A stretch of DNA of 64,000 bases from Gentiana macrophylla (lineage: Eukaryota; Streptophyta; Magnoliopsida; Gentianales; Gentianaceae), in contig CM047810.1 of NCBI GenBank assembly GCA_026214975.1, positions 38,743,280 to 38,807,279 on the forward strand, in the 5' to 3' direction. The translations under genes were made by a program, and so were the position numbers. Position 1 is the first letter of the stretch. The number at the start of each line of letters is the position of its first letter. Shown piece by piece: positions 24,347-59,215 of the stretch. The notes under the pieces are model-generated. The model made no database searches. It had not been told where the DNA came from and saw only the letters and a program-made list of their open reading frames with translations.

Positions 24347-24591
24347 TGATGTAGCACATCCAAGCTAATTAATAGTATTTTATTATGTTTTAATTAATTA
24401 ATAGTTATATGGGCTTTTTAAGTAGGTTTTCACCTAAATGGGCTTTTTAGCCTCTATAAATAGTCTAAGTCTTTCTAATGTTAGCGATTATGTAATCTTG
24501 ATATTGAATCATATTCTCTTTGAGAATGATATTTTCTTTGAGCTTGGATTAGCTCGTGGTTTTACCCCTTTATTGTAGATCTTCTACATCA
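24347..24591 (+). repeat. 5' LTR of the gag-only element
   Basis: 245 bp, bounded by perfect 8-bp inverted repeats TGATGTAG and CTACATCA. CTCTATAAATAG at about 24452-24463 is a plausible TATA box, so transcription should start within this LTR. In the 3' LTR the same site reads CTCTGTAAATAG, so the TATA box is damaged there. Confidence 0.93.
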
Positions 24592-24593
24592 TT

Positions 24594-24606
24594 TGGTATC
24601 AGAGAC
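24594..24606 (+). promoter_or_regulatory. Primer binding site (tRNA-Met)
   Basis: TGGTATCAGAGAC lies two bases after the 5' LTR and is complementary to the initiator tRNA-Met 3' end, apart from the last bases. Confidence 0.85.
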
Positions 24607-24626
24607 AGGGTTTTTCCCCTCGTGGT

Positions 24627-25484
24627 ATGACGGCCAAAATGAGTTGGGAAGATAGCCGGATTCGCGACGGTGTTCGGGATTCGAAGATCCTTCGGGATGC
24701 TTTTACAATGGAGCTGCACCATGGACTGAAACATGGAGAGAGGAAGATCAAGCAGGTGGTTCACGGCAGGGAACGAGTCTTTCCTCGATCGACCGGTGAG
24801 CAACAATGTTTGATGCCCGTTAGTTTTTCTTCTACCTTTGATGACATGGAACGCTGGTTCCGTGAGTACGAAGAAAAGGAAGCCCCTTTTCTTGGGGTTT
24901 ACCAGAAAAATACCGAATCGGAGTCCATAATAGTCAGATTCAAGAGAAATTTACCTGTTTTTGATGGATTTTGGCACAAAGAAGATCTCATGAGCTGGAT
25001 TGATGCAATTAAAGACTTTTTTGAAGAAATCAATCCACCAGAACATCTAAAATGCAAAATCGTTTGGTATAAAATGAAGGGGGCTGCATATTATTGGTGG
25101 AAAATATTGCAGAATGATAGATTGTCGGAGGGTAAGAATTTGGTCATTTCATGGCCTAGAATGAGAGAGCTTTTAATCTCCAGATTTGCGCCTAGAAAGT
25201 GTTCGACGAAAGGTATGTTAGAAGTTCACAACAACAACAACCATGAAGAGAATGAGGGGAGCAAAATGGTTGGTGATCTTTGTCATCTTGCTAAAATTAG
25301 TCGGATCAAGTTAGCAAACGAAGATAATGAATATTCGGAGGAAAAGAGTGAAGGAGCTGAAGCTATAAAGCATACCGAGCAGGAAGGAGCTGATAGGATT
25401 GAGTACATACATGTTGATAATTCGAAGCACGCCAAGTGTTCGATAAAAGCTCCCACTGACAGACAAGATGGCGTAAGTGATTGA
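24627..25484 (+). CDS. Retrotransposon Gag-like protein
   Basis: 285 codons from the first ATG after the primer binding site. Residues of about 55-180 carry the Ty3/gypsy Gag core: ERWFREYEEKEAPFLGVY, VRFKRNLPVFDGFWHKEDL, MSWIDAIKDFFEEINPPEH and MKGAAYYWWKILQNDR, followed by a WPRMRELLISRFAP block. The tail is acidic and asparagine-rich (HNNNNHEENEG, NEYSEEKSEGAEA). No CCHC zinc knuckle is visible. It ends at a TGA, but the same frame reopens and continues to 27584. Gag should form the particle that packages the RNA. The broken minus-strand copy at 11434-12500 is a diverged relative. Confidence 0.85.
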   Translation: MTAKMSWEDSRIRDGVRDSKILRDAFTMELHHGLKHGERKIKQVVHGRERVFPRSTGEQQCLMPVSFSSTFDDMERWFREYEEKEAPFLGVYQKNTESESIIVRFKRNLPVFDGFWHKEDLMSWIDAIKDFFEEINPPEHLKCKIVWYKMKGAAYYWWKILQNDRLSEGKNLVISWPRMRELLISRFAPRKCSTKGMLEVHNNNNHEENEGSKMVGDLCHLAKISRIKLANEDNEYSEEKSEGAEAIKHTEQEGADRIEYIHVDNSKHAKCSIKAPTDRQDGVSD

Positions 25485-27584
25485 AATTTCAGATGCGGTG
25501 GAGATGATTCCTTCAAAGCGCACCAATGAGCTTCAACATTTGATTCAAATTCCATGGCTCCCAAGTCTTGCCTACCAAATTCAGTTGATGACTTTGAAGC
25601 TAAAAGTGTTACTGCATATCGTAATATTGGAGCTGAATATGAAGATGCAAATACAATCAAGACTCTGATTACTAGTTCTCAAGTGGTGCCCATTAACCCA
25701 TTCATCTTGGAGTTGATAAATCCCAACTCGTTGTTTACTAGTTTAATTAACAAAGGCAGCTTAGAATGTGGTACCGAATTCAACAATGCAAATGGAGAAA
25801 CGACCTCATGAAGAATTCTTTTGGAGATTCAAGATATCGATTTTGTTGTTGGTAAGATACTAATGCTCAATTTTGATCCTGGTGGTGCTAAGACCAACGA
25901 TCCATCCGGAGAACTGCGGCAAGCTTTATTGGCCAAAAATGAAAGAATAGAACATAATGCTGATAGTGTGAAGAGGCAAGCAGAAGACTTAAAAGGGAAA
26001 GGTTGTGCTACAAAACCTATAGTTCAAATGCAATCCAAAGAGCTAATGTCAACAACAGGGTTAGTTGAGATTGGCATGCCTTTACAAGATCTTGTGTCTT
26101 ACAAGCTTGATGACCAATATAAGGTTAGAAGGTCAAATATGGCAATCGGTTTTGGTGTGGTCATGAGTCCATTTCCAGGTGGAAATATAAGCTTGACAAA
26201 TCTAATCTTTAATGAGTGTATGTGTTTTAGTTATTTTGCTGCTAAGATTTTATCATTCTTAATTGATCCGGGTGGAGATCCGTGTATTGCGAGATTTGGA
26301 AAGTTTGAAAATTACCCCTTTCTTAACTACAACATATTATGGGACCGCATCAGTTTGCGAAATATAGTTGCAACAGAAGCCGCGTCGATTTGGAGCTCCA
26401 ATGCCATCAAAGGACATGGTGATCGGAGTTTTCACATGATGATTAAGGACTTGGCAACTGAGAGAAAATTACTCTATTTGTTTATGAGGCTTGGGAACCC
26501 AGTTGATAATTTGATTCGCTTTATGTGGGGATATGCTTACACCAATGTTGTTGTTGAGACAAGCAGAGGCTATGTGTGTGCTGTGAAAGTGGTAAACAAG
26601 TACCGAGGAGCTGTGAAGTTCAACCCAACAATAGGACATCAACTCGCACTCAGATCCTACAACTCAAGCTTACACCATGTATTTTGCAGTGGCTCTAATG
26701 ATTGAAGGATGGGCCAACGAAGGCCTACACCCCTTTTGTGCAGTCTATGCATCCTTCTTACTGATTTACTTATGGCCAAGAAATGTGTGATTCAACCTTG
26801 TGGGAGTTGTTTACGAGATTTGCAATGGGCGAATCGGCTTTTTGGTGTAGAAAGTTTTGTGCATTGGAATGTCTCTGATGTTATGTCTATGGAATGCTTA
26901 ATGAACACAGTGGCGATGGCTCCTCCAGATGAAACTAATTTAGGCCTAATGGTTGTGTTCGTAAACGACATACGGAATGAAGGAAGAATGTATTGTGGCT
27001 TTTCAGAAAAGCAAGTTTATGTTGGTATGTTCCTTCACCAATTGGCTAAAAATCGAATAGATGAATCACAAAAGTTCACAAATGTTTACGTGAAAAATCT
27101 TTTGGTGACTACCATACATGATGATCTGCACAGAATTTTAAGAAATTATGGTTCCATCACCAATGTAGTTGTTATAAAATATGCAAATGGGACATTTGGG
27201 TGCTTTGACCTTGATGCTGCAAGTGTACAAGCTGTTCGACTTTCATGTGGCATATTTGTTTCCTGGTGTGATCTTCCAACGGATACCGGCCTCGATCTAG
27301 CTCGTGGACGAGCTATTCCAAGGGAAGGTTGGAATGATGAGAACATAAATATGGAAATGAAGTTCATTATGGCTAAGATACGTGTTGTTACAATCTCATC
27401 ACGTTTGAACATTTTATTCAAGAATGGTCAATTTATGGAGACTTTGAAATTGTTCCATAAGGTGGTGAATGGACTTGACCCACCAATGGATCTTGATAGT
27501 GCTTGCTCGTGGATCTTTATGAGTTCGCTCGTGGACGAGCTTTTGAGGAGGAGGGATGGAGATGATGTAGCACATCCAAGCTAA
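25485..27584 (+). pseudogene. Continuation of the Gag frame with captured host sequence
   Basis: The Gag frame stays open to a TAA at 27582-27584, just inside the 3' LTR. It is interrupted only by TGA codons at 25527, 25809 and 26703, plus the one at 25482 ending Gag. From about 27007 to 27250 it reads EKQVYVGMFL, FTNVYVKNLLVTTIHDDLH and NYGSITNVVVIKYANGTF. This is the RRM2-RRM3 linker and start of RRM3 of a poly(A)-binding protein. A later piece, LNILFKNGQFMETLKLFHKV, is PPR-like but weak. The rest (about 25820-26990) is not recognised. No pol domain is present. Function, if any, is unknown. Confidence 0.7.
27541..27562 (+). promoter_or_regulatory. Polypurine tract
   Basis: GAGGAGGAGGGATGGAGA immediately precedes the 3' LTR (TGATGTAG at 27563). 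This is the expected plus-strand priming site. Confidence 0.8.
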
Positions 27585-42920: not shown

Positions 42921-43642
42921 TTGATTCCTGACTCATACTTAAGATACGTAGGCAACTTGGGATTCATAATCTCAGGCTCAGTCTAAAAATACTCAAACAC
43001 CACCCCCGTTTTATGCTTGTTCTTAGAGCATAGTCTTGAATTCGTTGTCACAAGATAATTACGGTCCGGATAATATTACAAGCGAGATCGAGCATCGTCA
43101 CTTTCCTTTTCTTTTCTTTTAACAAGTTTGGGTTGATGACTATCCAACCAATCTTCCCCACTCATATCAAATGTCGATGTCATGGTCAAAAGAGACTTGT
43201 GCCTGCTTTATTGGGTGCTATCATGAAGAGAAGAGACATATTGGTTCCGGATCCAGAGTCTAAATGAAAATGGAATTTAGTCTCACAAGCAATCGCAGAT
43301 CTAATACATAAAGCATTCACCAAATCTTTGAATGCATCGAGGTGGTATTTGGTGGTGAGAGGTGTTTACATCAAAGGTACCAAATGAATGAGAAAATTTG
43401 TTTGCATAGGGGTTGCGGAAAGTGACGTTGGGGAGGTAGTTTGATGAAACAAGGACAATATTGTCATTTTACGAAAAATGCTCTGGCACTAATTTACTTT
43501 ACATGGCAATACCGGGCACCAAAGACAATTGTTTTGTTTAGACATCCTCCGCATCTTCTCTCAAAAGCTTGTCGGAGGCTTTGATGTCGTCATTCTTTGA
43601 AAAGCCTTAGCCATTCACTGGCTATGGTCTTTTCATTCATAC
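42921..43642. other. Interrupted host repeat, right part
   Basis: It begins TTGATTCCTGACTCATACTT then AAGATACGTAGGCAACTTGG, a block I associate with the 3' ends of large plant LTRs. The sequence into which the four 24-43 kb elements inserted was therefore probably an older LTR element. No gene is visible up to 43642. Confidence 0.4.
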
Positions 43643-43926
43643 GTAGAAATTTCTTTTGATGTCATATTCGGCGATTCACAGACGGTCCATAAAAACACGT
43701 CGCATGAGGATGATTTATCTCACTTAGGCTCTATTATCGATGATTGTAAAGCTCTTATTCTTGCTTTTGTCAATTTTTGTTCTTCTTTTGTCAATAGAGA
43801 GGGCAACATCCCATCCCATATTCTAGCAAAGAAAGGCTTATCTCTTTGTCGATTACCAACAATGATGAAGGCGCACGAGACCGCCTTACAATTTATTTTG
43901 GCGTGTTATCTTGATTTGAATCGATA
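43643..43926 (+). pseudogene. RNase H-like (RVT_3) fragment, LINE-derived
   Basis: The open frame reads VEISFDVIFGDSQTVHKN, DDLSHLGSIIDDCKALILAF, FVNREGNIPSHILAKKGLS and ends in TAA. This is the second half of the RNase H-like domain found at the C-terminus of plant LINEs and related orphan genes. An A-rich tail follows, consistent with a LINE 3' end. The N-terminal half is absent. Confidence 0.7.
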
Positions 43927-44685
43927 AAAATTCATTTTTCCTCAAGAAAAAAAAAGCGAATCAAAGGAATAAAATATAATTAAGTAAAGTAAAATAATAA
44001 TTAGAAAATTGTTTTCCTTTTTGAAATTTGTGTGATGAGTAAATGATTGTTGAGAGAAAGTAGTATAATAACTAAAATAATGATAAAAAAATGTAACGGA
44101 AGGAATAAAATGAAATGGTGGAAGATTGATTTTTTTTATTTTGTTTCAAAAAAAACAAGATGTTTTTTTATTTATAGACAAAGAAATAATTGACGAGTTT
44201 TTTTTTTTTTTTTTTTTTTTTTTTGAGAAATTGGCAAGTTAATTTTTTTAGGGTAGTTAATTTTTTTTTTTTGAGGGTAGTTAATTTAAAACGAATGAAT
44301 AAATAAAGTGGTGAGATTTATTTATTTATTTAGTATTATTATTTTTATTATTGTTGTTGTTGTTGAGAGGCAGATGATTTAAAATGAATTAAAAATGATT
44401 CGTGTCCAAACCTTAGCGGCGGAGCGCGGCAGAGGTCGGTGAAGTTCCAAAATGAATGACACAAAACGGATGGCACGATCTTGGGGCAACGGTGTTTTCT
44501 CTTGCCTTAGATTTTGCGGTATCGAACTCGAACATGGTGGTGGGTTCTTGAGTAGAGTTCAATTAGAGCCAAAAAAAAAAATAATAAACAAAACCTCAAA
44601 AACATTAGAATTACTCAAACAAGGTTCTCGTCGGCGATGACTGAAATGCACTGAGCAGTGAGCTGCATTACAGAAAAATACAGAA
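43927..44685. other. AT-rich region upstream of the maturase gene
   Basis: Contains long T-runs (44199-44224 and 44260-44272). It should contain the promoter and 5' UTR of the downstream gene. No TATA box was assigned. Confidence 0.4.
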
Positions 44686-47600
44686 ATGGCCGCCATTAGA
44701 AGATTGACAATTAATTTTTCAAGTCTCAATACCATGTCCTCTCCGTCCCCTGCGCTTTTAATATCTCGTAGAGGAGGCGTAGCAGCAGCTTCGAAGCTTT
44801 TCATCGGAGGTACCTTCTCTCCGCGTCTCGTATTCCACGTTTTTCTTGCCTTTCTTGTTTTGCTCTGAAATTATGAGTGGCAACCGCATTTTCAATAAAC
44901 AATAAGTAACCACGATCACTATGATTTCATTCCTCTGAATTATTATTCAGAATATCGGATTTGAGGGAGGAAATACCAGAATACTAGTTTTCAAATTATC
45001 TTTTGGGGGTTCACCTTTTGGGGTCTCAGTCGCTGGAGCTTCATTAACTCCTAGATACATATTTTCTGATGCATTATGAATCATGAATGGAATTGGTTTT
45101 TTTTTACATTCCTAAGGAGTAATTTGGTTGCTCTTGTTATAATTATTTACATGATTTGTGAATTATTTGCACAATGTACTTGGATAAAAAAAAAAAATCA
45201 TCAAGTGAATCTTAAGCTACTTACATAAGAGGTACCAATTTTCTTGATGGATCATTGGCATTGGATTGAATTCCAAGTACATGCAAGATACTGATTTCAG
45301 TTGCCTAATGCATTGCAATACAAGATCAGACACATAACTCAGTACCATCTACATTATACCCACCAAGCCAATTAAACAAAATGCAAATCTTCTCAAGTGC
45401 GCTCGCCATATCTGTAAATTAGATTCGTTTAGAATCAGATGTCAATGTAACAGCATCTGCACAAAGTGGTGTGGACAATGCATGAAATACCCCTTTGATG
45501 ATGCATTCTGCCAATTCCGAGAAAAAATTGTGTGAAAAGGTTATATGGTTCTGGATTGTAAGAGATGCCACCTATCTTAGTCAGATTCAGGCCAGAGGAT
45601 TTCCAATTGTCAAACCATAAAGAAGTAATGCTCTGTTTCTTGATTGTTTAACTTGAGCACTGAAATTACTTGACATTCTAGTTTACTTTTTTTTTTTCTT
45701 TTTTCTTTTTCAATTCCTGTGGAATAGCTTTCCTAAACCTGATTGCGTGCATATTATGATACTTTTAAAATTATGCTTTGGGGTTGCTTTTATTCTCTCT
45801 TTGTTACGTGTAGGAGAGACCTCTGAAAATAACTTTGAAATTTCAGAAGCACCTTCTTAAAAGTAGCTCACCCCCAAGCAAAGAAGAAAATCAACTCTTT
45901 ATTATTTGTAATATTTCTCATGAATTTTCGTCGCTCTGTTGCAGGAATGTCTTTTCCAATCGCGGAGAATGGTTTGTCTGAGGCATTATCTCAGCATGGT
46001 CTTTCAGTGTTTCATCTTGGGAGGCTACTTTTCCAAAGGTCTTTCAGTGTTTCATCTTGCTCAAGGGCTAAGGAAGAAGGAAGTCAAAGCAATAATCTGG
46101 AGATGAATAAAGACAAAACGACTCTAGCTTTGAGCTTAGCAAGCTTAATGGACGAAACTTATGCTGCACAGGAGAAACAACCGAAGAGCAGAGTGGAGCT
46201 CAAGAGGTCACTTGAGCAACATATTAAGAGGAGGGTCAATGAACAATTTGTAGATGGGAAGTTTAGGGCCCTTTTTTCGAAAGTGATTGCAAATGTGGAA
46301 ACTCTTCGGGATGCTTATGATTGTATTAGGGTACAATCCAATGTAGACTTATCATCGGATAGGGAGAACCTGCCTTTTGAATCCATAGCAGAAGAACTTC
46401 TATGTGGGACTTTTGATGTGAGTGCTAATACATATTCTTTATCTACTAGGGGAACAACTAAAGAATTGTTAGTTTTCCCAAATCTTAAGCTGACGGTTGT
46501 GCAATACGCTATTAGGATAGTGTTGGAAGTTATTTATAAACCTCACTTTTCAAAGATTTCACACGGTGGTCGAAATGGAAGGGATCATTTGTCTGCTCTA
46601 AGATACATCAGGAAAGAGCCAAATCCTAATTGGTGGTTTTCAGTGGTTCTGGAACAAAAACTGGATGATTGCATCCTTAATAAGATTCTCTCCATCATAT
46701 CAAACAGGATTGAAGATCCTGAACTCAATGATATGCTTACATGTATGTATCGTGACAATGTTCTAAATTTGGAGTTCGGTGGCTTCTCAAAAGGGCTTGG
46801 TCTTCCACAAGAGGGAGTGCTGTCTCCTATATTAATGAATATATATCTTGACCTTTTTGATCGTGAAATATACAGGATAACTATGAGATATGAAGCTCTT
46901 GAAAAAGTGGGATTGCCTACTGAGAACAATAGGCGTCACTCAAAGTTACGTAGCTGGTTTAAGAGACAAATTAAAAGCACCGATAACCAAGAATATAGCG
47001 TTGAGGAGAGCTCCAGTCCACGAGTACATTGTTGTCGCTTTATGGATGAGATTTTTATCGCCGTTTCAGGTTCTGAAGAAATGGCTCTTGCTTGCAAATC
47101 AGATATAGAAGATTACTTGAAGAATTCTCTACACATAGAGGTCAGTAATGAAACAGATGTTTTGCAATGTGATGGTGCCCATGGTATTCGATTCCTTGGA
47201 ACATATATCCAAAGAGGCCTGAAAGACAGTCCTGCATTAAGAGCTGTTCATAAGTTAAAGGATAAAGTAAAACTGTTCGCCACACAAAAACATGAAGCTT
47301 GGGAAGTGGGCACTTTTAGAATTGGCAAGAAATGGCTGGCACATGGGCTGAAGAAAGTCAAAGAATCTGAGATCAAGCATTTATCTGGTAACAGTCCTCT
47401 ATTGAACCAAATTTCTGGTTTCCGTAAACCTGGGATGAAAACTGATCACTGGTACAGAATCCTTTTACGAGTATGGATGCAAGACATTAATGCTGTACCA
47501 GCAGACAGCGAAAAATCTTTACTTTCTAAGCACATTATAGAACCAGCTCTTCCTCAAGAACTACGAGATTCCTATCACGAGTTTCAAAAGTGTGCTCACG

Positions 47601-48343
47601 AGTACGTGTCTTCTGAGACAGCTGCTACCATTGCTCTTCTACCAAGCAATACTTCTTCTTCTTCATGTACCTCTCTCTGGCACACACAAGTTTTAGCCCC
47701 TACACATGCAATGAAAAAACGCCTCCATCGCTATGGTTTAACGAATCTTGAAGGATTTCCTCGTACATGTAATACGCTCGTTTTACTAGATGATGATTGT
47801 ATCATTGATTGGTTCACAGGAATTGTTCAACGTTGGCTTAAATGGTATAGAGATTGTGACAACTTCAATGAAGTCAAGCTCCTTATTTGTGATCAAGTAA
47901 GAATGTCATGCATACGAACACTGGCAGCAAAATACCGAATACATGAGGCGGAGATAGAAAGAAAATTCGATATGCAATTAAGCGAAATTCCTGGTGTCGA
48001 TGAGGAGATAGATTGCAACTTAAGGTATAAAGAATATAATATTGATGATAGCGTGTTGTTTGGGATCCCTAATAGTGGGTTGTGTTTGTTATCATTAGCA
48101 AGGATGGTCAGCAAGTCAAGACCATGCAATTGTTTTGTTATGGGATGTGTGGCTTCTGCACCTTGTGTTTACACTCTTCATGTAATGGAAAGGCAAAAGT
48201 TTCCAGGATGGAAAACTGGGTTTTCAAGCTGTATACATCCGAGTTTGCATACAAGAAAAATTGGTCTTTGTAAACAGCATTTGAAGGATTTGTTTCTTGG
48301 GAATATATCACTTCAATCTATCAACTTTGGTGCTTGGAGATGA
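44686..48343 (+). CDS. Nuclear group II intron maturase with GRP-like first exon
   Basis: Nuclear maturases of this type (plant nMAT family, probably the nMAT3/nMAT4 class with a C-terminal endonuclease-like domain) help splice group II introns in mitochondria. Two exons are inferred: 44686-44809 and 45945-48343. They are joined GT/AG in frame, giving 840 residues. Exon 1 (MAAIRRLTINF...KLFIGG) looks like the organelle-targeting exon of a glycine-rich RRM protein. The maturase proper starts at about residue 65. RT blocks lie at about 220-370 (ISHGGRNGRDHLSALRYI, GLGLPQEGVLSPILMNIYL). The YADD site is replaced by FMDE at 47039-47050. Domain X includes WFTGIVQRWLKWYRDCDNF. The C-terminus (KFPGWKTGFSSCIHPSLH, GLCKQHLKDLFLG) is the endonuclease-like region. 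A start at 45920 or 45947 without exon 1 is possible but would lose the targeting sequence. Confidence 0.85.
45998..46059 (+). repeat. 22-bp direct repeat at the fusion junction
   Basis: GGTCTTTCAGTGTTTC plus ATCTTG occurs at 45998-46019 and again at 46038-46059, an offset of 40 bp. The first copy directly follows the RRM-like coding segment and is read as LSVFHLG. The second is read in another frame as RSFSVSSC, which looks like maturase presequence. Confidence 0.85.
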
Positions 48344-49586
48344 TGTTGAAATATATCTGCATGGATTTATCACTTCAATCATCAAATTACATTTAAAGAT
48401 AATTTGGATCATACCTGCTAAAGAAGCCCAATACAGGGAAGATGAATTTTATTGATAAAACTCTACTGGTTCATAGAACATCTCTTTAGTGAAGATACCT
48501 TGCAACCGACGTCTCGACCTCCTCTTTTCCCAGAAGCACGCTCTGGTGCGTTACTTTTACTTTTAATTAATGCCTTCTGATTTCTATGATGTAATTTCTT
48601 TTTGCTTTGTGTGAATCTTTCTTCAATAATGAGATTTAACCTCAGTGTACATTTCGATTTACAAGCTGAACAAATGAAGAACGATCCATTTGTTTTCTCG
48701 ATATGGACAATGATAGTGTGCTTCTTTTTCTTGCAATCTCAAAGTCAAATTTTATCGTCATCTTAGGTTGGTGTGTTGTTCCTATCTTCGTGATCGTTAT
48801 TTCCCACCCAGAATTTTGTTTTTTGGAATGTTATATGCATTGCTCAGGCGATTAAGCATTGCGTGTAAAGCTTCTTACAACGAAGGGGCAAGTTGCAACA
48901 TTAGAAATTCAAGAGTATGGCTGAAGATTTGAGCTCATGAATGAGCTGAACAAAGGGAGTTGATTATATAAGGGCTATACTCTTCTTTGCACATTTTTGC
49001 ACTCTGAAGAGTAATTGTAATCTCATTCTACGTTTTTCTTTTTATGGGAGTTAATTTTTTTATTTTTTTTAAGGGAGTTTTATTTATTTTTATTGTAAAG
49101 ATTCTGGGTGCAAAAGAAGTCCTAATCTTGAAGTTTGGTTTGTTTCCATACATGACTTGATTTCTTTCATGTCATTTTATGAATGGTCCACATGAGTGAG
49201 GGGATTGTATTGTGTTTTAGCATGTTTGATTTTAAGTATACTTTTATTACCAGCCTCTGTGTTCTATCATTCATCTTGTTTCGTTGACATTCTTGTAGTT
49301 GTTGTACCTTTGTGCTTAAATTATGCTCCCATGTCCAGGGACTATAGTGCCCCTTTCCATTCAATATTCTTTGTTGATTTATTCATGGTATTGAACCAAT
49401 GTATGTACCTTGTTGATATTCAAAGGAAGAAATGGTCTAAACGGTCTATTTTGGGGTTAATTTCGGACAAGCCTTGTTATTATAATTCATCGAGAGATAA
49501 TAGTATCATTGTAATCTACGAGGAGGTTTAACCGTGTCTGTGTTTGGCCGATCGTCGACGACCGCAAGTTTTGTTTACCACATGAA
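48344..49586. other. Maturase 3' flank
   Basis: Contains the presumed 3' UTR and AT-rich sequence. No further coding domain was recognised; ORFs at 49167-49531 look random. Confidence 0.45.
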
Positions 49587-49659
49587 ATGTTATCCTCTGA
49601 CTCTATACTTTTCTGTGCTCGAGAATTTTCTGAGAACTGCTGTACTAATTTGACTAACT

Positions 49660-50050
49660 TGTTTTGCAAGGAACCTTCTTGGATTGTTTGGGAACCTCCT
49701 GCTGAAGGATGGATCAAATTCAATGGATCAAATTCAAAGTTAACACAGATGCAAGCTGCATTGAATTTGATGAAAATGGCAAAAGGGATGATCGCCATTG
49801 GTGGTGTTTTCAGAGACAACAATGGCAGATGGATTAGAGGCTTCATGGGAGTTACGGGAAGAAACTCAAATTTTTAAGCCAAGCTTATGGCCATAAATGA
49901 GGCTATTTGAATAGCCAAAGATTACGGTGTTAATGCTCTTTGGGTTGAATCTGACTCCCTCTCTGCTGTTATGGCCATTGGTATTAAAAGTAGAGATGAA
50001 GATGGCAGAGCCCTTATTAATGGCATTGTGTCTATATCAAATAATATATA
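49660..50050 (+). pseudogene. RNase H-like (RVT_3) fragment
   Basis: EPSWIVWEPPAEGWIKFNGS is followed by AIGGVFRDNNGRWIRGFMGV, a stop at 49876, and then, in the same pattern, VNALWVESDSLSAVMAIGI. This is the RNase H-like domain of plant LINE ORF2 or its orphan relatives. The first catalytic Asp in the usual FNTDG context is replaced (FNGS). There are two or more stops, so it is decayed. Confidence 0.65.
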
Positions 50051-50339
50051 CTCCGTATTATAGTATTTTATTTTACACGTAATACATTTTTTATCGTGGT
50101 TGAGATGTTAAAAAATGAAATATGATAATATATGTCATTATATTGTAAAATTTGTCTCTTATTGACATTTATTAATTTATAGTTTTTTGCCGAGAAGGAC
50201 ATATTAATTAATTTATCCGGCTCCAAGTACAATAGAGATTAATTAGGACAAAACATGTGTAAAGTTACCGATATACCCCTTTTCCAATTCTTATATCTCC
50301 CTCATCCTGGTTCGATCAAATCTCAAACCACAAATTCAC

Positions 50340-50873
50340 ACCACAGCCGCCACTTCCCTCATCCAAACTCAGTCCATTGCCCACCGTGATTTGGCTGGAA
50401 ATTGGACTCGGTTGGACAGTGGGCGGAGCAGTGAAGCAGCAGCCGAATTTGATCAGATTTTTACAGTGGAAGGACGGATCAAATCGTTACAGTTCGAAGC
50501 CGGCTGAGAGTGGCGGCGGAGTTTAAGAAATTTATCGGAGATGAAGCAGCAGCCATATTTCTTCGTCGGAGATCTCTCCCTCTCTTTCTTTGTCCTCTGT
50601 CAACCTCGACTTCAATGGCTGCCGGATTTGGGGTGGAGGAGGAGTGGTGAACTTCTTCCCTCATCCAAACTCAGCCCATTGCCAATAAACTTCTTCCCTC
50701 ATCCAAACTCAGTCCATTGCCCGCCGCTGCTAATTCAACTCGGCCGGAAGTTGCAGATTTGCAGCAGTTTTTTTTTTTTTTTTTGAGAAACTTTAGGCAG
50801 ATTTGCAGCAGTTTTTTTTTTTTTTTTTTTTGTTAAGAAACTTTAGGAAGTTGCAGATTTGCAGATTTGCAGC

Positions 50874-50908
<35 letters not shown>

Positions 50909-50910
50909 AG
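50340..50910. repeat. Local duplications with poly-T runs
   Basis: CTTCCCTCATCCAAACTCAG occurs at about 50353, 50656 and 50695. A second block, TTTGCAGCAG plus a poly-T run plus GAAACTTTAGG, is repeated with T-runs at about 50769-50784, 50812-50831 and 50877-50907. No gene is supported. The region is a patchwork of short duplications. Confidence 0.75.
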
Positions 50911-50999
50911 AATTTGGGATTCACTACCTGAAACGGTAAATGTTACTATGTGCCGATCAATGTTACGGTATGATGTGGATGAATGATACTGCTTGTTTA

Positions 51000-51300
51000 G
51001 TCTGATCGTGTGCAAAGGTTACTTGATGACTCATGAATTTATGAATGTTCTTGCATCTGGATGAATGTTACTTGATGATTCATTAATGTTACTTGATGAT
51101 TCATGAATGTTATTGTATCTGGATGAATGTTAGTGTGAATATTCTTGATGATTCATGAATGTTCTTGCATCTGGATGAGTTCTTCGATGATTCATGAATA
51201 TTCTTGCATCTGGATGAATATTCTTGTGAATATTCTTGATGATTCAATGAATATTGTTGCATCTGGATGAATATTACTGTGAATGGGTATTTTTATCCAA
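51000..51300. repeat. AT-rich minisatellite
   Basis: Imperfect tandem copies of about 40-50 bp contain TGATGATTCATGAATGTTCT and TGCATCTGGATGAAT. About six units are visible. Confidence 0.75.
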
Positions 51301-57459: not shown

Positions 57460-59215
57460 ATCTTTGCATCGCGGTGTCACTTCATCGTCGTGTCTCTGCA
57501 TCGCGGTGTCTCTGCATCGGAGGTGGTCACAACATCGTGGTGTCTCTACATCGGGGGTGGCCACTGCATCATGGTGGTCAATGGATCTGGGGTGGTCAAT
57601 GCATCGCGGTGTCACTTCATCGACGCATCTCTGCATCGCGGCGTCTCTGTATCGGGGGTGGTCACTGCATCGTGGTGTCTCTGCATTGGGGGTGGACACT
57701 GCATCGCGGTGTCTCTGCATCGAGTCTGGCCACTGCATCGCGGTGGTCAATAGATTGAGGGTGGTCAATGCATCGTGATGGTCATCGCATTGGAGGTGTC
57801 TCATCGTCGCGCGTCTACGGATCGGGGTGGTCATCGCATCGTGGTGTCTCTGCATCGGGGGTGGTCACTACATTACGGTGTCTCTGCATCGGGGTGGTCA
57901 CTGCTTTGCGGTGTCTCTGCACCGCGGTGTCTCTGCACCGCAGTGTCTCTGCATCGGGATGGCCACTGCATCGGGGTGTCTCTGCATCAGGGGTGGCCAC
58001 TGCATCGCGGTGGTCAATGGATCTGGGTTGGTCAATGCATCGTGGTGTCACTTCATCGAGGCGTCTCTGCATCGCAGCGTCTCTGCATCAGGGGTGTCAC
58101 CGCGATCGCGGTGTTAAATGCATCGGGGTATTCAATGGACTGGGGTGGTCAATGCATCGCGGTGTCACTTCATCGAGGTGTCTCTCGCATCGAGGTGGTC
58201 ACTACATCGCGGTGTCTTTGCAATGCGGTGTCACTTCATCGCGGTGTCTCTGCATCACGGTGTCACTGCATCGCGGTGTCTCTGCATCGCGGTGTCACTT
58301 CATCTTGGTCTGCATAACGGTGTCTCTGCATCGTGGTGTCTCTGCATCGCGGTGTCTCTTCATCGCGGCGTCTCTGCATCGTGGTGTCTCTGCATCGGGG
58401 GTGGTCACTGCATCGGGGTGGCACTGTATCGCGGTGGTCAATAGATTGAGGGTGGTTAATGCATCGCGGTGGTCACTGCATTGGAGGTGTCTCTGCATCA
58501 CGGCGTCTCTGTATCGAGGCGTCTCTGTATCGAGAGGGTCACTGCATCGTGGTGTCTCTGCATCTGTGGTGGTCACTGAATCGCAGTGTCTCTGCATCGG
58601 GGTGGTCACTGCATCGCGGTGTGTCTCTGCATCGGGGTGGTTACTGCATCGCGGTTTCTCTGCATCGGGGGTGGTCACTGCATCACGGTGTCTCTACATC
58701 GGGGGTGGTCACTGCATCACGGTGTCTCTGCATTGGGGTGGCCACTGTATCGCGGTGGTCAATAGATTGAGGGTGGGCAATGCATCGCGGTGGTCAATAG
58801 ATTGAGGGTGGGCAATGCATCGCGGTGGTCAATGCATCGCGATGGTCACTGCATTGAATGTGTCTCTGCATCGCGATGCTCCTATATCGGGGGTGGTCAC
58901 TGCATCGTGGTGTCTCTGCATCGGGGGTGGTAATTGCATCGCGGTAGTCAATCCATCAGGGTGGTCACTGCATCGGGATGATCACTGCATCACGGTGGTC
59001 GATGCATCGTGGTGTCACTGCATCGTGGTTGTTAGAGCATCACGGTGTCACTTCATCGCGGTGGTCACTTCATCGTGGTGGTCAATGCATCGCGGTTGTT
59101 AGTGCATCACGGTGGTCACTGCATCGCGGTGTTCAATGATCGCGGTGGTAAATCGTCGGGATGGTCATTGCATCATTTGTGTTACATCGTCGGGGTGGTC
59201 GATATATCATGGTGG
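57460..59215. repeat. 1.75-kb GC-rich minisatellite
   Basis: About 100 tandem units of 16-18 bp in two interspersed forms: CTGCATCGCGGTGTCT (16 bp) and CTGCATCGGGGGTGGTCA (18 bp). There are variants ACTTCATCG and CAATGCATCG. It is dense in CpG within AT-rich DNA. The long open frames through it (for example 57768-58805) follow from the repeat lacking stop codons and are not evidence of a gene. Confidence 0.95.

Follow-up and report, generated by a model that had tools for sequence, protein, structure and literature searches.

Gene layout

The window (the whole 64-kb stretch of plant nuclear DNA that was analysed) contains a two-exon gene which is chimeric: its first exon and the start of its second exon belong to small RNA-binding protein 11 (SRBP11), the rest belongs to nuclear intron maturase 4 (nMAT4), and a copied piece of 22 nt stands at the joint of the two. 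The features of the gene are listed in Table 1. Translation can start at the ATG at 44686; the GT donor at 44810 is read as GGAG|GTACC and the AG acceptor at 45943-45944 as TTGCAG|GA. The join of exons 1 and 2 is in frame (phase 1) and gives an open frame of 840 aa with no internal stops. The initial annotation had described an RRM-like exon 1 joined in frame to a maturase, which agrees both with the 840-aa frame and with the 52.5 bits of the N-terminus against an SRBP11 profile. Its acceptor and its reading downstream of the acceptor also stand, but the switch to maturase is located at 46019/46020, about 20 bases beyond the end coordinate of 46000 which it had given.

Table 1. Features of the chimeric gene and of its joint (positions in the window)
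Feature	Position	Strand	Description
Exon 1	44686..44809	+	From SRBP11; MAAIRRL...PALLISRRG...KLFIGG; ends in phase 1
Intron 1	44810..45944	+	1135 nt, GT-AG, at the position of the SRBP11 first intron
Exon 2, whole	45945..48343	+	Stop at 48343
Start of SRBP11 exon 2	45945..46000	+	MSFPIAENGLSEALSQHG; beta-1/alpha-1 of the RRM; similarity up to Gly60
Putative filler, 22 nt	45998..46019	+	Identical to 46038-46059; codes for GLSVFHL and one further base
Native nMAT4 exon 2 (inferred start)	46020..48343	+	GRLLFQRSFSVSS ... stop; residues 67-840 aligned with P0002, 72.5% identity
Source copy of the putative filler	46038..46059	+	nMAT4 sequence, present also in the closest homologue (RSFSVPS)
RVT_1, reverse-transcriptase-like domain	46475..47200	+	Residues 219-460, Pfam E 1.2e-7
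Intron_maturas2, type II intron maturase domain	47690..47971	+	Residues 624-717, Pfam E 3e-7

The maturase body

Residues 67-840 match nMAT4, and the two Pfam domains of this part score 32.1 bits (RVT_1, cut-off 29.6) and 30.9 bits (Intron_maturas2, cut-off 20.8). The protein search gave 328 homologues; the 120 listed are 57-73% identical over 87-95% of the query. Many of these are named nuclear intron maturase 4 and the rest carry generic maturase, RT-domain or hypothetical names; no protein from the source species is found among the 120 listed of the 328. The tree took in hits of the nMAT4 search (55 of the 120 listed, plus the window sequence) and left out nMAT1-3. It pairs the window sequence with P0002 (support 1.0), and the wider clade comprises Cinchona, Coffea, Oldenlandia, P0004, P0005 and P0019 (support 0.995); by this placement the plant belongs most likely to the Gentianales, as Cinchona does. 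Concerning conservation, 166 of 172 near-invariant columns are kept in the window sequence, the figures for eleven homologues being 163 to 172 of 172-175; of the columns that more than 90% of the 119 homologues fill in this alignment, 6 are gaps in the window sequence. Judged by these conserved positions, the maturase body is intact.

Two of the homologous models are themselves composite. P0001 (Penstemon smallii) has 1259 aa and contains part of the maturase twice, which points to a tandem duplication or to gene models that were run together. P0099 (Corchorus capsularis) is a fusion of an ADP-ribosylation-factor-like GTPase and nMAT4 in which the native start of the maturase is preserved internally; annotation has probably merged two adjoining genes here.

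In the 120 listed homologues the native start is mostly a presequence which runs into G(R/K)xxxR...YST, and five native exon-1 strings used as queries found matches in 35 of the 120 at E 0.01. The residues of P0002 upstream of GRLLYQRSFSV read as intron (...DIVEGRLLYQ) and not as SRBP11. Starts that read out of an intron are also seen in P0038 and P0044 (MTGKSAGR, vs ...TIIGKSAGR in P0035), and in P0049, P0076, P0084, P0116, P0118 and P0119. Because these N-termini, known as protein letters, run out of the intron, we infer that the ancestral exon-2 start lay inside that Gly codon, which would be 46019/46020 in the window. An N-terminus common to nMAT4 orthologues, the finding which would speak against a fusion, was not encountered: the best score of the SRBP11 profile is -0.5 bits among the 120 listed of the 328 homologues. 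Upstream of the conserved core, 88 of these 120 extend by at least 30 residues, and 29 extend by no more than 12 and are too short for the comparison. When the first 75 residues of 119 homologues were compared with positions 43001-46100, no native nMAT4 exon 1 was recognised there (the best match outside exon 2 has E 0.026); this null is a weak one, since nMAT4 first exons diverge fast.

The N-terminal region

The spliced residues 1-66 score 52.5 bits (E 2.2e-15) against the SRBP11 profile, which was built from 111 of 120 listed rows with the window sequence left out, and the whole fusion protein scores 46.0 bits. Shuffles of the same 66 residues reached 7.4 bits at best (n=1000); the RRM likeness of the N-terminus, as measured by this profile, is not due to chance. 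When a large protein database was searched with residues 1-62, one of the 13 candidates scored was retained as a match, the RRM protein P0121 of Cinchona calisaya (E 3.1e-5), which is 70% identical to window residues 24-60. With P0121 as the query, 326 relatives were found; among the 120 listed, many are named small RNA-binding protein 11 and some glycine-rich RNA-binding protein 4, mitochondrial-like. The window N-terminus follows the SRBP11 start pattern MAA(L/I)RRL...SRRG...S-KLFxGG-xSF..E.GLSEA.SQ.G. The agreement with SRBP11 runs up to Gly60 (G in 111/111 profile rows) and then ends, and the residues which come after Gly60 in SRBP11 (Q in 110/111, V in 111/111) are not retained. Within the shared part, several positions fixed in SRBP11 are altered, among them T47 to I and F56 to L (each 111/111 in the family).

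Pfam does not call an RRM in the first 87 residues because the remnant amounts to about a third of the domain only, i.e. about 23 of 70 residues (vs P0121), RNP1 and the C-terminus being absent; the intact P0121 carries a full RRM_1. The PDB search gave weak matches (best E 0.16); of the 20 with E up to 10, 19 are named as RRM proteins. A full RRM domain in the fusion is ruled out, as Pfam finds none in those 87 residues and the SRBP11-like sequence is not continued downstream; in a tblastn of P0121 over the 64-kb window, the best match besides the two fused pieces has E 0.58. It is unlikely that the RRM remnant binds RNA.

Based on the profile and the database match P0121 with its relatives, the donor is SRBP11. 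A glycine-rich mitochondrial protein (GRP) had been named as the donor initially, and this candidate is replaced by SRBP11: the start of an organellar RNA-binding protein was correctly seen, with its first exon, intron and RRM start, but a glycine-rich C-terminal tail is absent from the fusion and also from P0121, the member of the donor family which was read whole.

The position of intron 1 can be compared with that in SRBP11 itself. Six of the 120 listed SRBP11 models (P0152, P0171, P0176, P0178, P0205 and P0206) have inserted sequence right after KLFVG/KLFVGG, as if an intron had been retained, and two of the 120 (P0146 and P0220) have inserted sequence after QVVE or QVIE. SRBP11 therefore has one intron after KLF(V/I)GG and another a few codons downstream of Gly60. 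The window donor and acceptor fall directly after KLF(V/I)GG, which matches the place of SRBP11 intron 1 in those six models. Since the intron is kept, the segment in the window is SRBP11 genomic DNA (exon 1, intron 1 and most of exon 2) and not a processed copy.

The joint between the two parts

The two copies of the 22-nt repeat are identical at 22/22 bases and lie 40 nt apart; the window has these two copies on the + strand and none on the - strand. The second copy is native to nMAT4, encoding RSFSVSS in the window where P0002 has RSFSVPS, and the first copy sits precisely where SRBP11 sequence gives way to nMAT4 sequence. The first three bases of the latter copy are also the SRBP11 Gly60 codon, and its length of seven codons plus one base keeps the frame. 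The joint has the look of templated filler DNA left by the repair of a break; in plants, templated filler is known to arise when broken ends are joined. The end of the filler coincides with the inferred old nMAT4 intron/exon boundary (46019/46020), which may be chance. Concerning the age of the event, the SRBP11 segment has lost invariant residues while the two filler copies remain identical, so that no single clear age is indicated.

Two other origins of this piece were considered. A plain 40-bp tandem duplication is ruled out, as the repeat covers only 22 of the 40 bases: the spacer of 18 bases has 6 matches with the 18 bases that precede the first copy and 4 with the 18 that follow the second. 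The nMAT4 proteins of Forsythia and Abeliophyllum read LSVIH(I/M)GRP, for which reason LSVFHLG was considered as a remnant of the native exon 1; this is the less likely reading, since the exact 22-nt copy explains the residues better. The window has 12 more sites with exact repeats of at least 20 nt within 100 bp; the ones at about 22.0-22.3, 35.6-35.7, 51.1 and 58.2-58.8 kb are within tandem arrays, and others are located at 13.3 and 50.7-50.8 kb.

Proposed origin and function of the fusion

We consider it likely that the gene is a break-repair chimera which is expressed and imported through its SRBP11 start and then cut to an unchanged maturase. A double-strand break would have joined the 5' part of SRBP11 (exon 1, intron 1 and the start of exon 2) to nMAT4 exon 2, and a 22-nt piece of nMAT4 would have been copied in as filler at the joint. 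Transcription would start from the SRBP11 5' end, splicing would use SRBP11's own first intron, and import would proceed through the SRBP11-derived N-terminus. Cleavage near the retained maturase RSF|SVSS would discard the RRM remnant and leave the mature maturase unchanged. The SRBP11 part would most likely serve as a new 5' end and presequence, the maturase itself staying as it was. Of residues 1-47, five are K/R and none is D/E, a composition typical of organelle presequences. The site QRSF|SVSS, with Arg at -3, fits what we take to be a common plant mitochondrial cleavage pattern. In Cinchona, SRBP11 (ACH5RR_004536) and nMAT4 (ACH5RR_004533) are three locus tags apart on equally long contigs, and they are probably near neighbours; with such a neighbourhood, a deletion between the two would make the fusion in one step. 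This linkage is seen in Cinchona only, and in Oldenlandia and Coffea arabica the two genes are on unequally long contigs.

The maturase would be expected to splice mitochondrial nad1 introns, as nMAT4 does elsewhere. The four nMATs of Arabidopsis are described as mitochondrial, nMAT4 promoting nad1 splicing (PMC9321910), and a chloroplast location is described for Arabidopsis SRBP11 (PMC5454924, PMC6627697). Given the chloroplast location of the latter, the SRBP11 N-terminus may not send the protein to mitochondria, and plastid or dual targeting of the fusion is possible.

A different reading, which we regard as improbable, is that the SRBP11 exon is a relic and that the transcript starts within the intron, at the ATG at 45920 (MNFRRSVAGMSFPIAENG...), and stays unspliced, or that it uses another first exon. 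The exon-2 frame is indeed open from 45839, with ATGs at 45920 and 45947, and the basic start MNFRRS could itself act as a presequence. However, the two splice sites are undamaged and agree in phase, the frame of exon 1 is open with an ATG, and the SRBP11 intron position is kept; another first exon of nMAT4 origin was not recognised in 43001-46100 with the 119 homologues, a weak argument as such exons diverge fast. There is also little to recommend the insertion of a processed (reverse-transcribed) nMAT4 copy into SRBP11 exon 2, which is very unlikely. The nMAT4 part starts within a base of the inferred ancestral exon-2 start, as a copy of spliced RNA might, and pieces of reverse transcriptase are found nearby; a full processed copy, however, would also bring nMAT4 exon 1, which is absent, and the rest of SRBP11 is not found downstream in the window. 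Moreover, 48344-51000 contains no A-runs of at least 9, and the joint and the 3' flank share one 9-mer only, which leaves no good target-site repeat. An assembly join or a dead pseudogene in place of a working chimera is hardly credible, in spite of the transposon domains in six of the ten ORFs scanned and of the missing source-species protein among the 120 listed homologues, as a misassembly hardly creates a templated 22-nt joint together with an in-frame fusion at a matching intron phase, and the 840-codon frame is intact with 166 of 172 near-invariant residues kept (6 well-filled columns being without letters).

A second putative first-exon replacement

A further group of nMAT4 proteins, 6 of the 120 listed homologues (P0077, P0085, P0095, P0096, P0101 and P0112), starts with MS(Y/F)EKRL. 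Residues 1-50 of P0095 match the SAL1 phosphatase (PDB 8f9y) with E 6.8e-14 and residues 1-48 of P0085 with E 1.8e-6; in the same comparison the native nMAT4 N-termini of Cinchona and Fagus give a best E of 1.5 and 0.15, respectively. The named members of the group are Malus, Prunus avium, Argentina and Rosa. Argentina belongs to the Rosaceae, and we take Malus, Prunus avium and Rosa to be Rosaceae as well. The SAL1-like part closes with ...HG right before the nMAT4 RAS, at the exon-2 Gly codon, in P0077, P0095 and P0112, and P0085, P0096 and P0101 are diverged at the SAL1/nMAT4 boundary. The SAL1 start looks like a first-exon swap, i.e. a plain exon replacement. As these sequences are protein predictions only, the SAL1 start might also be an artefact of the gene models, against which stands its presence in several species. 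Counting the fusion in the window, nMAT4 has probably had its first exon replaced on at least two occasions, and the SAL1 and SRBP11 replacements are apparently independent.

Comparison with known systems

Like the nMAT4 of other angiosperms, the fusion has RVT_1 and Intron_maturas2 and its body in one large exon 2; unlike them, it has an SRBP11 start, whereas theirs is mostly a different presequence and none of the 120 listed has a start that scores as SRBP11. With SRBP11 (S-RBP11, Arabidopsis AT5G06210) it shares exon 1, the position of intron 1 and 18 codons at the start of exon 2, but it keeps only the truncated RRM described above. The SAL1-start nMAT4 proteins have in common with it the recipient gene, a borrowed N-terminus and roughly the position of the boundary, which directly precedes the R of the native GR/GK; they differ in the donor, and their joint is known from protein sequence alone.

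Among transferred mitochondrial genes, rps19 with an RRM reportedly acquired its 5' sequence. Further cases are sdh3 with the presequence of a heat-shock protein, described as a presequence acquisition by a transferred mitochondrial gene (PMC8317393), and rps14 inside sdh2, also described as transferred (PMC1543663). The sdh3, rps14 and rps19 captures resemble the fusion in that an organellar protein gene takes the 5' sequence of another nuclear gene. However, they are new arrivals from the mitochondrion, whereas nMAT4 has long been nuclear and has had its own presequence replaced. Capture of a 5' exon or presequence is thus a known type of event, and the fusion is a variant of it in which the replacement took place in an established nuclear gene. 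In the literature on maturases, RRM, SAL1, presequences and gene fusion, no maturase with an RRM or SAL1 start is found among the matches listed.

It is possible, and we offer it tentatively, that nMAT4 exon 1 is a replaceable cassette for which SAL1 and SRBP11 have been lenders together with their promoters, and that a swap may re-address the maturase to plastids or to both organelles. The first part of this proposal builds on the phase-1 intron, by which the presequence is set apart from a body that is encoded in one exon and retains a cleavage site of its own; the second builds on SRBP11 being a plastid protein in Arabidopsis. The fusion would illustrate how organellar proteins can swap their targeting address label, and an apparent scar of the replacement can still be read in its DNA. 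With two apparent replacements, it becomes testable whether a presequence exon that is followed by a phase-1 intron serves as a point of exchange in evolution. Should the plastid-type start work, the gene would also be a natural test of re-addressing a mitochondrial maturase.

Surroundings of the gene

Ten ORFs beside nMAT4 were scanned for host genes: six have transposon domains and four are without any match. On the + strand, an open frame of 292 aa is located at 26706-27584; it has no Pfam match at 0.01, and to our eye it resembles the RRM of a poly(A)-binding protein. Two more long frames without matches lie just upstream of it (24579-26705). The maturase gene is flanked by frames at 43601-43927 and 49515-49877 (+), which read like RNase-H pieces of a non-LTR element; a Pfam match (RVT_3) is found only for 43601-43927. 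Finally, a degenerate minisatellite of about 1.7 kb with a 16-17/34-bp unit occupies 57461-59147 and is open in several frames.
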